The notes under the pieces are model-generated. The model made no database searches. It was not told where the DNA came from and saw only the letters and a program-made list of their open reading frames with translations. A stretch of 45,217 nucleotides of DNA from a virus. Below are positions 32,140 through 38,061 of the stretch, one piece after another. A program made the position numbers and the translations under genes. The stretch spans positions 1 to 45,217 of the IMG/VR virus record IMGVR_UViG_3300046538_000307; one strand, given 5' to 3'. Each line of letters begins with the position of its first letter. Within the stretch, counting starts at the first letter, position 1.

Positions 32140-32355
32140 TCAAGCCGGGACAGTTGGCTCTTCGGACTTCGGGGGGTTCAGAAAGATGTCCGGGTAGGCC
32201 ACCTTGACGGCAGACGGGATGCCCCGCTCCTTCCAGTTGTGGACGCGTTGGACGCCGCCCTTCTTGTCGAAGCCAAGCAGTTCAGCAACCTTGGCGGGGC
32301 CGCCAAGGCGATCAATGAGTTCACGGTCCATAGCGATAGAGGCGTCGGGTTCCAT
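32140..32355 (-). CDS. Cro-like repressor
   Basis: A small DNA-binding protein divergent from cI. From ATG 32355 it has 71 residues; ATG 32331 is also possible. MDRELIDRLGGPAKVAELLG and FDKKGGVQRVHNWKERGIPS form the short HTH typical of Cro-like proteins, in which the recognition helix reads VQRVHNW; a C-terminal strand follows. It should repress the promoters shared with CI and favour lytic growth. The promoter -10 lies so close that an ATG 32355 message would have almost no leader. Confidence 0.82.
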   Translation of the reverse strand: MEPDASIAMDRELIDRLGGPAKVAELLGFDKKGGVQRVHNWKERGIPSAVKVAYPDIFLNPPKSEEPTVPA

Positions 32356-32361
32356 GACCAC

Positions 32362-32416
32362 ATTAAACACTACGTTTAACTAAAAGGCAAACAGCTTGTT
32401 TATCAACGAAGCGTTT
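32362..32416. promoter_or_regulatory. Immunity operators and cro promoter
   Basis: Three sites share AAAC-N5-GTTT: TTAAACACTACGTTTAA (32363-32379, a perfect inverted repeat), AAACAGCTTGTTT (32389-32401) and CAACGAAGCGTTT (32404-32416, one mismatch). The cro promoter on the reverse strand is TTGCCT (32390-32385), 17 bases, TTTAAT (32367-32362), whose -10 overlaps the first operator. A cI promoter should lie here on the forward strand but its boxes are weak. Confidence 0.82.
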
Positions 32417-32437
32417 ACCTGTGAGACCATCCCGCGC

Positions 32438-33421
32438 ATGCACGAAACGATGGTCCGCCTCTATGAGGCCGCACGCACCCTGAAGAACCTCGAGACGCCC
32501 ACGGACGTCGCGCGGGCGCTTCACCAATCCCAGCAGACGATCAACAACTGGGAGCGGCGCGGCATGTCGCGCCCTGGGATGATCGAGGCGCAGAAGCACC
32601 TCGGCTGCAGCGCAACCTGGCTCCAGACCGGCCGGGGGTCCATGACCTACGATGCAACCATCAAGGCCGCCAACGAGATGGACAATGGTCTGGCCGAGCG
32701 GATAAAGGTGGTGCTCGAAGAGCCGGGAATCGCGCCAAAGGCCCTCGCCAAGGCAGCTGGCGTGCCGCCGGAGATGGTCGGCCAGTGGCTTTCAGGCGAC
32801 GTCAGGACGATGCCGCTCGAGCAGGCGGTGGGGATACAGGACTCATTCGGCTTCAGCGCCGTGTGGCTGGTGATGGGCAAAGGCTCGCCGAAGGCCGCCG
32901 TCTTCGACGACCCCCGACCGCGGCCCGTCCCAGCCAAAGAACCCAAGCCGAGGAAGAAGGCAGAGGTCGAACCGACCGAACCGACGCCGCTGACATACCA
33001 GGCGGACGTAGCAAAATACCGAGCGATCCCGGTGGTAGGTCGCGCGCAAGGCGGCCTCCCTGATCGGATCTGGACGGACGGAGACTATCCTGTGGGAGCA
33101 ACCCAACAGTACGCGGAGGTCGCAAGCGCCGATCCCCAGGCGTTTCTGACGCCCGTGGTGGGCTTGTCGATGATCCCTCGGTTCAACCCGGGCGAATTCG
33201 CGCTGGTGGAGCCGGGCACCGAGCCTGAACTGGAGGATGACGTCCTGGTGAGGCTGAATACTGGCGAGACCATGATCAAGCGCCTGCTGTCCAGGCGCCA
33301 AGGCATCCGGCTGGGAAGCTACAACGATGCGGAGGTCTTCACCTTCGATCCTGAGGCTGTTACGTGGATGTACTACGTCGCCCACCCTGTGCCGGCACGC
33401 AAGATCAAGACGAGGCTGTGA
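32438..33421 (+). CDS. CI-like repressor with two HTH domains and S24 protease domain
   Basis: Taken from ATG 32438, because an earlier ATG at 32396 lies inside the operators. The 327-residue protein has a first HTH at residues 1-66 (ETPTDVARALHQSQQTINNW then HLGCSATWLQTGRG), as in phage CI HTH proteins; a second XRE-like HTH at 84-148 (KALAKAAGVPPEMVGQWLSG); a charged, proline-rich linker; and a LexA/S24 domain with VVGLSMIPRFNPGEF (Ser244) and GETMIKRLL (Lys281). RecA-stimulated self-cleavage would release the lytic operons. Two HTH units in one chain are unusual. Confidence 0.9.
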   Translation: MHETMVRLYEAARTLKNLETPTDVARALHQSQQTINNWERRGMSRPGMIEAQKHLGCSATWLQTGRGSMTYDATIKAANEMDNGLAERIKVVLEEPGIAPKALAKAAGVPPEMVGQWLSGDVRTMPLEQAVGIQDSFGFSAVWLVMGKGSPKAAVFDDPRPRPVPAKEPKPRKKAEVEPTEPTPLTYQADVAKYRAIPVVGRAQGGLPDRIWTDGDYPVGATQQYAEVASADPQAFLTPVVGLSMIPRFNPGEFALVEPGTEPELEDDVLVRLNTGETMIKRLLSRRQGIRLGSYNDAEVFTFDPEAVTWMYYVAHPVPARKIKTRL

Positions 33422-33447
33422 GAGCAGCCCAAATTGGAGAGAACTTC

Positions 33448-33807
33448 ATGCGTTGGATGATCCCCTCACTTGGGGCGCTGAGCCTGGCATTGAGCGGTTG
33501 CGTTTCCCTTGGCGACCTCGACCAGAAGGCCCCCGCATACTCAGCTGACCTTCCGGGCAACTACCTAGCCGCCGCCGAATGCACGAAGGCACGCCAGGCG
33601 AAGGCCACCACGATAGTTCGAATCGACCTGCTCCACGACGCAGCCAAGAAAGAGGCTATGGTCACCTGGAATCACGACCTCGGCACCGGCACGGCCTTCG
33701 TATTCACGGGAACCAACAACGGGACCACGCATCTCCGCGTCTACGAGTCCACGCCCGTCGACCAGAAGTGGATCGCCATTGCTGAGGGATGCGGCTCGAA
33801 CAGCTGA
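33448..33807 (+). CDS. Lipoprotein encoded behind cI, candidate lysogenic-conversion gene
   Basis: A 119-residue lipoprotein: MRWMIPSLGALSLALSGC has a lipobox LSGC near residue 18. The mature part is a small beta-rich domain (ATTIVRIDLLHDAAKKEAMV then TGTAFVFTGTNNGTTHLRVY) with a Cys near the end. GGAGAG seven bases upstream supports ATG 33448. It lies 26 bases after cI, on the same strand and before a strong terminator, so it should be made in lysogens. Surface lipoproteins in this spot often alter phage adsorption, but that is inference. Confidence 0.8.
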   Translation: MRWMIPSLGALSLALSGCVSLGDLDQKAPAYSADLPGNYLAAAECTKARQAKATTIVRIDLLHDAAKKEAMVTWNHDLGTGTAFVFTGTNNGTTHLRVYESTPVDQKWIAIAEGCGSNS

Positions 33808-33838
33808 CAGGCGGCGACCCCGCCCCTCTGGGAACCAT

Positions 33839-33864
33839 GCCCGCCACCGAGCGGGCAATTTTTT
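33839..33864 (+). terminator. Rho-independent terminator after the cI-lipoprotein unit
   Basis: GCCCGC (33839-33844) pairs perfectly with GCGGGC (33851-33856) around six bases, followed by AATTTTTT. It separates the lysogenic transcript from the PL-like promoter. Confidence 0.88.
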
Positions 33865-33873
33865 CGCCCTCGA

Positions 33874-33915
33874 TTAAACATTCTGTTTGACGTTTGTTTA
33901 AACGTCGTGTTTAAT
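33874..33915 (+). promoter_or_regulatory. PL-like promoter with two immunity operators
   Basis: TTGACG (33887-33892), 17 bases, TTTAAT (33910-33915) is a strong sigma-70 promoter. Two copies of the immunity operator overlap it: TTAAACATTCTGTTTGA (33874-33890) and TTAAACGTCGTGTTTAA (33898-33914). Operator centres are 24 bases apart, the same as the first two at the cro promoter, so CI and Cro should control this operon too. Confidence 0.85.
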
Positions 33916-33945: not shown

Positions 33946-34041
33946 GTGGCAACCGCTCTCATCATCTTCTTCGTGGCTGGACTGGCCTGCGCCTTCTTGG
34001 GCTGGGCCTGCGTCCACGTTGGCGCGAGGTCCGACCAATGA
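33946..34041 (+). CDS. Single-span membrane microprotein
   Basis: A 31-residue protein from GTG 33946, with GGAGG five bases upstream. One membrane segment (ALIIFFVAGLACAFLGWACV) fills most of it. It is the first gene after the PL-like promoter, and its stop overlaps the next start (ATGA). Function unknown; tiny early membrane proteins may modulate host membrane functions. Confidence 0.7.
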   Translation: MATALIIFFVAGLACAFLGWACVHVGARSDQ

Positions 34042-35484: not shown

Positions 35485-36438
35485 GTGACCGAAACCGAAG
35501 TCATCACCGCCGAGACAGGCACTGTCGCGCTGCTCAATAAGAGCGAGATCGACATGCAGATCACCACGGCCCACAAGTTCCCGCGGAGCATCAAGCGCTT
35601 CCGCGACGAGACGCTGGCCATGGTGACGCTGAACGAGAACATCGCGCAGGAATGCATCTACGCCCTGCCCCGCGATGGCAAAACGATCGAGGGTCCGAGC
35701 GCACGCTTCGCCGAGGTGGTCGCGTCCGCCTGGGGGAATAGTCGGGCGGGTGCCCGCGTGATCAACGACCAAGGCGAATTCGTCACCGCGCAGGGTGTGT
35801 TCCACGACCTGGAGCGCAACGTGGCCATCACGTACGAGGTGCAGCGCCGCATCACCGACAAGAAGGGCAACCGCTTCAAGCCCGACATGATCGGCGTCAC
35901 GGCCAATGCCGCCTGCTCCATCGCGCTGCGCAACGCCATCCTGAAGGGCGTACCGAAAGCATTCTGGTCCGACATGTACGAACAGGCGCGCGCAACTGCC
36001 GTAGGAAATGTGCAAACACTGGCGAATCGCCGCGCCCGAGCTATCACGGTGCTTCAGCGCTATGGCGTCTCGCCGGAGAAGGTGTACGCCTTCCTAGGCG
36101 TGGCCGGCCAGGAGGACATCACCGTCGAGCACCTGACCACACTATTCGGCATCACCACTTCGCTGAAGGAGGGTGAAACCACCGCCGAGGAAGTCTTCAC
36201 TGGCGAGGTCCGTGGCCCCGCGTCGGGCGGCGACGCGCAGCCGGCCGCAGGTAGCGCGAAGCCAGCATGCACCGACGAGGTCTTCAAGAAGAAGGCGCCG
36301 GGCTGGAAGAAGGCCATCGAGTCCGGTCTGAAGACCGTGAATGAGGTCATCGCGATGGTGGAAACGAAGGAGGCCCTGACACCCGAGCAGAAGATGGAAA
36401 TCGCCTCCTGGGCCGCACCTGCCACGGAGGGCAACTAA
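35485..36438 (+). CDS. Candidate phage recombination protein, family not recognised
   Basis: A 317-residue protein from GTG 35485, with GGAG six bases upstream. The core shows ECIYALPRDGKTIEGPSARF, VITAQ-like strands (DQGEFVTAQGVFHDLERNVA) and AACSIALRNAILKGVPKAFW, a pattern of strands and an amphipathic helix that recalls single-strand annealing proteins, though it is not obviously RecT, Erf or Rad52. The end is a disordered linker and a short helical module. It sits directly before a YqaJ-type exonuclease with no gap, the usual place of an annealing partner. Function is inferred from context. Confidence 0.7.
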   Translation: MTETEVITAETGTVALLNKSEIDMQITTAHKFPRSIKRFRDETLAMVTLNENIAQECIYALPRDGKTIEGPSARFAEVVASAWGNSRAGARVINDQGEFVTAQGVFHDLERNVAITYEVQRRITDKKGNRFKPDMIGVTANAACSIALRNAILKGVPKAFWSDMYEQARATAVGNVQTLANRRARAITVLQRYGVSPEKVYAFLGVAGQEDITVEHLTTLFGITTSLKEGETTAEEVFTGEVRGPASGGDAQPAAGSAKPACTDEVFKKKAPGWKKAIESGLKTVNEVIAMVETKEALTPEQKMEIASWAAPATEGN

Positions 36439-38061
36439 ATGCAGATCCACAACCTGAACCAGGGCACGCCCGAGTGGCAGCACTTCCGCCTGTCGTACCA
36501 CGGCGCCAGCGAGGCCGCTGCCATGCTTGGCCTGTCGCCCTACGTAAAGCGCACCGAGCTGCTGCACGTCAAGCACACCGGCACGCCGAAGGAGTTCAGC
36601 GACTTCGTGCAGGAGCGCATTCTGGACCGGGGCCACGAGGTCGAGGCACTGGCCAGGCCGCTGGTCGAGGATGACCTGGGCGAGGACCTGTATCCGGTTA
36701 CCTGCTCGGACGGCGCGCTGTCGGCGTCGTGTGACGGTCTGACCATGGCCGGTGACGTCGCCTTTGAGCACAAGCAGTGGAACGAGGAACTGGCGCTGGC
36801 GGTGGAGAACGGCAACGTTCCGGACAGCCACATGCCTCAGTGCCAGCAGATCATGCTGGTGACCGGTGCCGAACGCGTGCGCTTTGTGGTGTCCGATGGC
36901 ACGCGCGATCGCTTCGTGTGGACCGATGTCACTCCGGACGAAGAATGGTTCGATCGCATTCGCGCCGGCTGGGAGCAGTTCGAGAAGGACCTGGCCGACT
37001 ACCTGCCGCAGGCCCTGGAGGTGAAGCCCGTAGGCCGCACGCCGGAGACGCTGCCGGCCCTGCTGGTTGAGGTCACCGGACACGTCACGGCCAGCAACCT
37101 TACCGAGTTCCGCAACCATGCCGTGGCGGTCTTCCGCGCGATCAATCGGAACCTCTCCACCGATCAGGACTTCGCCGATGCCGACAAGACGGTCAAGTGG
37201 TGCGGCGAAGTGGAAAGTCGACTGGAAGCCGCCAAGCAACATGCGCTGTCCCAGACCGCGAGCATTGACGCTCTGTTCCGGACGATCGACGACATCAGCG
37301 CCGAGGCTCGCCGTGTTCGACTGGATCTCGACAAATTGGTGTCACAGCGAAAGACCGAGATCAAGGAATTGATCATCCGTGGCGGGCGCGACGCCTACGA
37401 AAAGCACGTCCAGGCGCTGAAGGCGGAGACTGGCGGCGCATGGGTGCCGCTAGGCATGCCTGACTTCGCGGGCGCGGCCAAGGGAAAGCGATCGGTGGCG
37501 AGCATTCAGGATGCCGTCGACACGGTCCTGGCGAACGCCAAGATCGATGCGGACGCTTCGGCGAAGCGCATCCGCGCCAACGTCGCCTTTCTCGAAGAAG
37601 CCATCGCCGGCTACGAGTTTCTTTTCGCCGACCGGGCCGGACTGAGCACGAAGCAACTGGACGATCTGCGTCTGGTGGTGACCAGCCGCATCGACAAGCA
37701 CAAGGCGGACGAGCAGCGCCGGCAGGACGCAGAGCGCGAGCGGATCCGCAAGGAAGAGCAGCTGAAGCTGGAGCGCGAAGCCGCCGAGAAAGCCGCCGCC
37801 GACAAGGCAGCAGCTCAGGCGCCCGCGCCAGCGCCTGCACCGGCGCCAGCCCACGAACCGGCTGCTGCTGCGCGGCCGGCCTCACCCGCCCCGCGACAGG
37901 CCGCCCCTGTGACGCAGATGGCCGGCCGCCCGCGCCCCATGCCACGCCCCGCCGACGCGGAGATCGTCAGCGCGCTGGTCAGCCACTTCGAGGCCACCGA
38001 GGCCGAGGTGATCGGCTGGCTGTGCGAACTGGACTTCTCGTCCTTCGACAGCGCCGCGTAA
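36439..38061 (+). CDS. YqaJ-like viral recombinase/exonuclease with long C-terminal extension
   Basis: A 540-residue protein. Residues 1-190 are the YqaJ nuclease: GTPEWQHFRLSYHGASEAAA, LDRGHEVEALARPLVED, then SASCDGLTMAGDVAFEHKQW, which carries the D and ExK metal-binding residues. Typical YqaJ proteins stop near 200-340 residues. Here about 230 residues of helical domain (DISAEARRVRLDLDKLVSQR) follow, then a charged helix, an Ala/Pro linker and a small acidic C-terminal module (AEVIGWLCELDFSSF). It should resect double-stranded ends for the adjacent annealing candidate. Confidence 0.88.
   Translation: MQIHNLNQGTPEWQHFRLSYHGASEAAAMLGLSPYVKRTELLHVKHTGTPKEFSDFVQERILDRGHEVEALARPLVEDDLGEDLYPVTCSDGALSASCDGLTMAGDVAFEHKQWNEELALAVENGNVPDSHMPQCQQIMLVTGAERVRFVVSDGTRDRFVWTDVTPDEEWFDRIRAGWEQFEKDLADYLPQALEVKPVGRTPETLPALLVEVTGHVTASNLTEFRNHAVAVFRAINRNLSTDQDFADADKTVKWCGEVESRLEAAKQHALSQTASIDALFRTIDDISAEARRVRLDLDKLVSQRKTEIKELIIRGGRDAYEKHVQALKAETGGAWVPLGMPDFAGAAKGKRSVASIQDAVDTVLANAKIDADASAKRIRANVAFLEEAIAGYEFLFADRAGLSTKQLDDLRLVVTSRIDKHKADEQRRQDAERERIRKEEQLKLEREAAEKAAADKAAAQAPAPAPAPAPAHEPAAAARPASPAPRQAAPVTQMAGRPRPMPRPADAEIVSALVSHFEATEAEVIGWLCELDFSSFDSAA

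Follow-up and report, generated by a model that had tools for sequence, protein, structure and literature searches.

The locus analysed here lies in a viral DNA stretch of 45,217 bases (the window) and contains a repressor gene, cI, flanked by two divergent early promoters that carry the same operator. A cro gene opens the replication operon on one side, recombination genes lie on the other, and the operators overlap the -35 and -10 elements of both promoters. The features discussed below are:

32140-32355, minus strand: Cro-like repressor of 71 aa (translation; phrog_8008, DNA-binding protein, E=1.8e-21)
32362-32390, minus strand: promoter PR, TTGCCT-17-TTTAAT, from the sequence (-35 at 32390-32385, -10 at 32367-32362)
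32363-32379, unstranded: operator OR1, TTAAACACTACGTTTAA, exact match, with the PR -10 inside its outer arm
32387-32403, unstranded: operator OR2, GCAAACAGCTTGTTTAT, exact core match, conserved, overlapping the PR -35, 24 bp from OR1
32402-32418, unstranded: operator OR3, ATCAACGAAGCGTTTAC, one mismatch, assigned from its conservation in relatives, 15 bp from OR2
32425-32430, plus strand: proposed PRM -10 (GACCAT), from which the message would start at the cI ATG
32438-33421, plus strand: cI repressor of 327 aa, HTH1 - HTH2 - S24 peptidase (Pfam HTH_3, Phage_CI_repr, Peptidase_S24)
32438-32632, plus strand: HTH1 (residues 1-65), proposed reader of AAAC-N5-GTTT from its co-segregation with the operator
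32687-32884, plus strand: HTH2 (residues 84-149), DNA-binding-type domain (Pfam PF07022/PF13443)
33014-33418, plus strand: S24 (LexA/CI) peptidase/dimerisation domain (PF00717, E=2.4e-11; Ser244 and Lys281 present)
33448-33807, plus strand: putative lipoprotein gene (ORF with an N-terminal signal sequence ending in LSGC)
33838-33867, plus strand: intrinsic terminator ending the cI-lipoprotein unit (7-pair stem, then a T run)
33874-33890, unstranded: operator OL2, TTAAACATTCTGTTTGA, exact core match and OL consensus of 61 loci, overlapping the PL -35
33887-33915, plus strand: promoter PL, TTGACG-17-TTTAAT, from the sequence (-35 at 33887-33892, -10 at 33910-33915)
33898-33914, unstranded: operator OL1, TTAAACGTCGTGTTTAA, exact match and OL consensus of 61 loci, with the PL -10 inside its outer arm
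36439-38061, plus strand, in the rightward PL operon: RecE/YqaJ-type (RecE-like) exonuclease gene (phrog_7655, E=6e-184)

The cro gene is the first of the leftward operon driven by PR, followed on the minus strand by one more small gene, a primosomal/replication gene and DnaB. To the right of OL, small ORFs and a phrog_3657 gene (35491-36438) precede the exonuclease gene; a 31-codon ORF at 33946-34041, with a hydrophobic stretch and GGAGG upstream, is likely the first gene of the PL operon. The putative lipoprotein gene occupies the position of rex in lambda, a slot between cI and OL that varies by phage, some carrying lipoproteins, some secreted proteins or other genes, and some being empty. 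The gene order matches lambda. On sequence criteria the locus belongs to the lambda-type OR/OL immunity regions, here in a temperate phage of the Cupriavidus group; the nearest cellular locus, in Cupriavidus campinensis, has an identical HTH1 and a CI 98% identical to that of the window.

Operators and early promoters

The original prediction of one operator family, AAAC-N5-GTTT, in two clusters was borne out by an exact-match search of the whole window, which returned four copies (32365, 32389, 33876 and 33900) against a mean of 0.15 in dinucleotide shuffles, with none of 100 shuffles reaching four and no equally good site elsewhere in the window. Both exact pairs (OR1/OR2 and OL2/OL1) have the centre-to-centre spacing of 24 bp claimed for them, and the site at 33874-33890 has imperfect outer bases (TTAAAC...GTTTGA). 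With up to one mismatch allowed, the window contains seven sites for 4.1 expected, so that the proposed third site (32404-32416) is within chance by window statistics alone. OR3 was discarded on this count and then accepted because relatives keep it as CAAC-N5-GTTTA at a fixed place; its membership of the family thus stands, with a spacing of 15 bp from OR2 and not 24.

The geometry foreseen for the promoters was also found, both having a 17-base spacer and a TTTAAT -10 that falls within the end operator's outer arm, with the -35 overlapping an arm of the inner operator. A consensus promoter scan passed over PR and PL because its -10 rule demands an A at position 2. The PR -10 is TTTAAT in 79 of 81 loci and the PL -10 in 61 of 62. 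The overlap of the outer arms with the -10 boxes could suggest chance palindromes made from TTTAAT promoter elements; we give this reading practically no credence and regard it as already refuted, since the opposite arms, unneeded by the promoter, are also conserved and the four sites compare with an expectation of 0.15.

The PR -10 ends 6 nt upstream of the cro ATG in the window, and the ATG lies 5-8 nt past this element in 55 of 79 loci. Before cI, an SD-like sequence was seen in only 3 of 81 loci, and GAnnAT is common at -13 to -8, i.e. 8 nt before the ATG, in the same set. Because of the closeness of the cro ATG to the PR -10, the scarcity of SD-like sequences and the position of GAnnAT, the cro and cI messages are probably leaderless. 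The proposed PRM -10 is weak; with transcription starting at the cI start codon, the centre of OR2 would lie at -43, near the position from which activation is known in lambda. TTTACC within OR3 was also considered as the PRM -10 and is the less probable choice, having no matching -35 and being poorer than the GAnnAT 8 nt before the ATG.

Conservation in related loci and DNA-first searches

Profile searches added 84 distinct loci in which the repressor begins with the same HTH1 (85 in total), the counts below not being independent owing to common ancestry. An exact OR site was present in 81 of the 85 loci and the OL pair in 70 (62 at 24 bp, seven at 25 and one at 22), contig ends being part of the cause for the four loci without an exact OR site and the 15 without a second exact OL site. 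ATTAAAC..TGTTTA is near-invariant across 80 aligned OR regions, and OR2 is one base off in most of the other loci. The finding made in the window can be generalised to related loci, and the proposal that two divergent early promoters share a single operator family, in the manner of OR/OL of lambda, is supported by sequence and by about 80 of them. A distant HTH1 relative from Acinetobacter (L160) has an operator pair 22 bp apart, not 24. The distance from the cI start to OL ranges from about 0.6 to 3.4 kb among relatives; looping between OR and OL is possible, and because this distance varies, fixed spacing gives no pointer to it.

Searches were also started from the DNA. Scanning 2.9 million viral contigs for operators plus promoter elements yielded 67 stretches, and an HTH1 gene was present in all 31 operator-promoter stretches with GC >0.55 and 2 kb of sequence to either side. 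Under the same GC and flank limits, the bare double operator was accompanied by HTH1 in 17 of 20 cases; two of the misses (L253 and L242) were rejected as chance GC-rich palindromes, AAACC...GGTTT, and the third (L299) has a Cro gene. Among AT-rich contigs HTH1 accompanied 6 of 39 matches, most matches there being due to chance. In four Cupriavidus genomes (5.6-6.5 Mb), the double-operator pattern occurred at one or two places each, only in the repressor-locus stretch, and a reversed control pattern gave no matches in these four genomes. The last results bear on whether the sites serve a host regulator, for example a TetR-family protein like PsrA, which has a reported Pseudomonas site of comparable form, the string AAACN5GTTT appearing in a P. 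fluorescens PsrA paper (PMC3510223). We consider a host regulator highly improbable, given the confinement of the double site to the prophage repressor locus in the Cupriavidus genomes and its association with the phage HTH1/Cro genes throughout Burkholderiales, in a Shewanella phage and in low-GC contigs.

Repressor domains and operator choice

The repressors were compared domain by domain across loci. The operator pair was found in 0 of 37 related repressor loci without HTH1, including loci with the same S24 type. Window-type S24 domains preceded by HTH1 (L015, L017, L021, L022, L027) occur with AAAC-N5-GTTT sites, and those preceded by other heads (L018, L019, L024-L026, L028-L030, L034) occur without them. 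For the S24 type AQLGDNG, repressors with HTH1 and HTH2 (L014, L062, L147) have AAAC-N5-GTTT and HTH2-only repressors (L131-L137) have CTAAAC-N8-GTTTAG, and the same operator split separates L060 (HTH1) from L138, L139 and L141-L143 (HTH2) within the S24 type VQAG..TEAVDP. The AAAC-N5-GTTT operator was retained after replacement of S24 (L040, L041), and operators are still present beside HTH1 repressors of 175-177 aa that have no S24. Repressors of this length with the same OR and OL were seen in L090, L095, L097-L101, L117, L120, L155 and L156. A Cro of the same family was detected in 11 of 11 HTH1 loci, against three weak matches in the 37 loci without HTH1; the inherited unit is therefore HTH1, Cro and OR, with OL 0.6-3.4 kb off past swapped DNA. 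In this comparison the operator goes with the first HTH and Cro, taken together, and not with the rest of the repressor. Neither the presence of two HTH domains nor the link between the first of them and the operator formed part of the original prediction. The relatives thus amount to a natural domain-swap experiment, in which the operator is constant and the peptidase, the second head and the genes between cI and OL vary.

Because HTH1 and Cro co-segregate, the comparison alone does not divide CI from Cro as the main constraint on the sites. These could be Cro operators in the first place, with CI repressing mainly through other DNA or through HTH2, as might be argued from the co-segregation of the Cro family with the sites and from L184, a locus seemingly without cI that keeps both operator pairs beside Cro. 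We judge this improbable, since in phages with this CI family the HTH1 recognition helix is the more conserved, HTH1 has the motif Q-x-x-x-N-W-x-x-R-G in common with Cro, and the operator of HTH2 relatives is absent. In L184 itself (590-730), a Cro gene (E=1.6e-32) accompanies OL and PR operator pairs that are separated by 105 bp and have no cI between them, as would be expected of a phage whose repressor was lost and whose operators stayed.

The AlphaFold model of CI (mean pLDDT 75, pTM 0.40) shows a pair of domains with five helices each (spanning 3-64 and 85-146) and a C-terminal domain rich in beta structure, and places the HTH1 recognition helix at residues 32-41. The top structural match in the PDB was lambda repressor (3bdn, E=4.4e-7); a sequence search of the PDB with CI gave zero matches. 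Ser244 and Lys281 are invariant in seven aligned two-headed proteins, and two-headed repressors were found with two S24 types. The two folds per chain, and the pairing of sites at both promoters, would suit a CI that binds DNA with both heads and treats the two sites of a 24-bp pair as a single composite target. This arrangement is very improbable, as single-headed HTH1 repressors have the same sites at the same 24-bp spacing and the HTH2 recognition helix is variable among close relatives.

HTH2-only repressors are accompanied by CTAAAC-N8-GTTTAG in 13 of 13 loci, in one of them with one mismatch; allowing up to one mismatch, this operator was found neither in the window nor in 23 other two-headed loci. 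The recognition helix evolves faster in HTH2 than in HTH1 (dN/dS 0.30 vs 0.07), and the C-terminal half of HTH2 is conserved (dN/dS 0.14). Recognition of AAAC-N5-GTTT by HTH2 was rejected on the absence of its relatives' operator and on the faster evolution of its helix. Operator choice has no need of HTH2, which was probably brought in when a CI from a different immunity group was acquired, its present role being probably that of a spacer or a part of the dimer. On the simplest reading, fusion of HTH1 to an entire HTH2-S24 repressor gave HTH1 control over which operator is used. In nearly all of L131-L143 and L322-L325, TCTAAAC-N8-GTTTAGA lies just upstream of cI and marks a second immunity group. 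Further tandem-HTH repressors with S24 and another first head were observed in L144 and in L322/L324 (minus-strand ORFs near 2246), those of L322/L324 lying near an HTH2-only repressor gene.

There is a small chance that some two-headed CI proteins are bispecific, HTH1 reading their own AAAC-N5-GTTT and HTH2 the CTAAAC-N8-GTTTAG of the rival group, in which case one protein would give immunity to two phage groups. L014 and L147 are the strongest candidates, their second recognition helices (TKGTVGQW and TKTTVSQW) being near that of HTH2-only repressors (TKGTVSQW), and phages of the HTH1 and HTH2-only kinds share a host genus (6 and 4 of 60 genomes). For the CI of the window bispecificity is a weaker reading, because its second helix has diverged. 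The relatives also raise the question why many repressors have a second DNA-binding head without a site for it in their own genome.

The proposed switch and known systems

We consider it very probable that the locus as a whole is a lambda-type immunity region in which HTH1 of CI reads TTAAAC-N5-GTTTAA at both early promoters. CI, dimerised through its S24 domain, would bind this sequence via HTH1 at OR1, OR2, OR3, OL2 and OL1, binding and the order of occupancy being predicted from the sites. The bound 24-bp pairs would mask the promoter elements (-35 and -10) at PR and PL and block RNA polymerase, so that PR (cro, replication) and PL (recombination) would be off in the lysogen. The Cro-like protein would read the same sites with its matching helix, Q-x-x-x-N-W-x-x-R-G, and OR3, beside or in the cI promoter, most likely sets cI autoregulation. 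The S24 domain probably also allows the prophage to be induced by RecA-stimulated self-cleavage of CI. Given the domain swaps among relatives, the immunity groups of Burkholderiales temperate phages can be predicted from the repressor's N-terminal 70 residues, and the DNA can then confirm them.

By sequence, the phi80 immunity region (GenBank X13065, with O-R and O-L annotated) is the nearest studied relative. The homologous HTH is 41% identical over residues 23-72, the order of a cro-like gene, OR, cI, other genes and OL is the same, and the phi80 OL has TTGACC-17-TTTAAT with operator arms over the -35 and -10, as in the window. The operator sequence itself is not shared: no AAAC-N5-GTTT was found in the phi80 early region, where the arms, read by eye, are ATCMACA...TGTTKA and lie 23 bp apart at OL, compared with 24 bp in the window. 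phi80 also differs in its lower GC, its host group and its CI, which has one HTH and not two. The operator had been proposed as a new sequence, and this holds relative to lambda and in that no description of AAAC-N5-GTTT as a phage operator was found in the openly searchable literature; it is nevertheless common to a large phage group, and phi80, the nearest studied system, combines the same PL geometry with diverged sites.

Lambda has three OR sites, with 24 bp between OR1 and OR2 and about 23 bp between OR2 and OR3, and three OL sites. The window shares with it two operator clusters around cI, three OR sites, the 24-bp OR1-OR2 spacing, the CI fold with an S24 domain and, as we infer, a leaderless cI. 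It differs from lambda in operator sequence, in an OR2-OR3 spacing of 15 bp and not about 23, in having two OL sites and not three, in a cro that is probably leaderless, and in the extra HTH of its CI. The Shewanella phage vB_Sb_QDWS (OK094664, a record without operator annotation) has an HTH1 55.6% identical to that of the window and carries OR1 as well as two OL sites at a 24-bp distance, in combination with a CI that has one HTH and another C-terminal part. Two DNA-binding domains per chain are also present in the immunity repressor of mycobacteriophage TipsytheTRex, a monomer that places both domains on an asymmetric site and has stoperators genome-wide (PMC9283540); the sites in the window are instead palindromic, restricted to OR and OL, and follow one domain. 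It is well supported that the window holds a known kind of switch, in which the operator group is new, the 15-bp OR2-OR3 spacing is conserved and the two-headed repressor is unusual.
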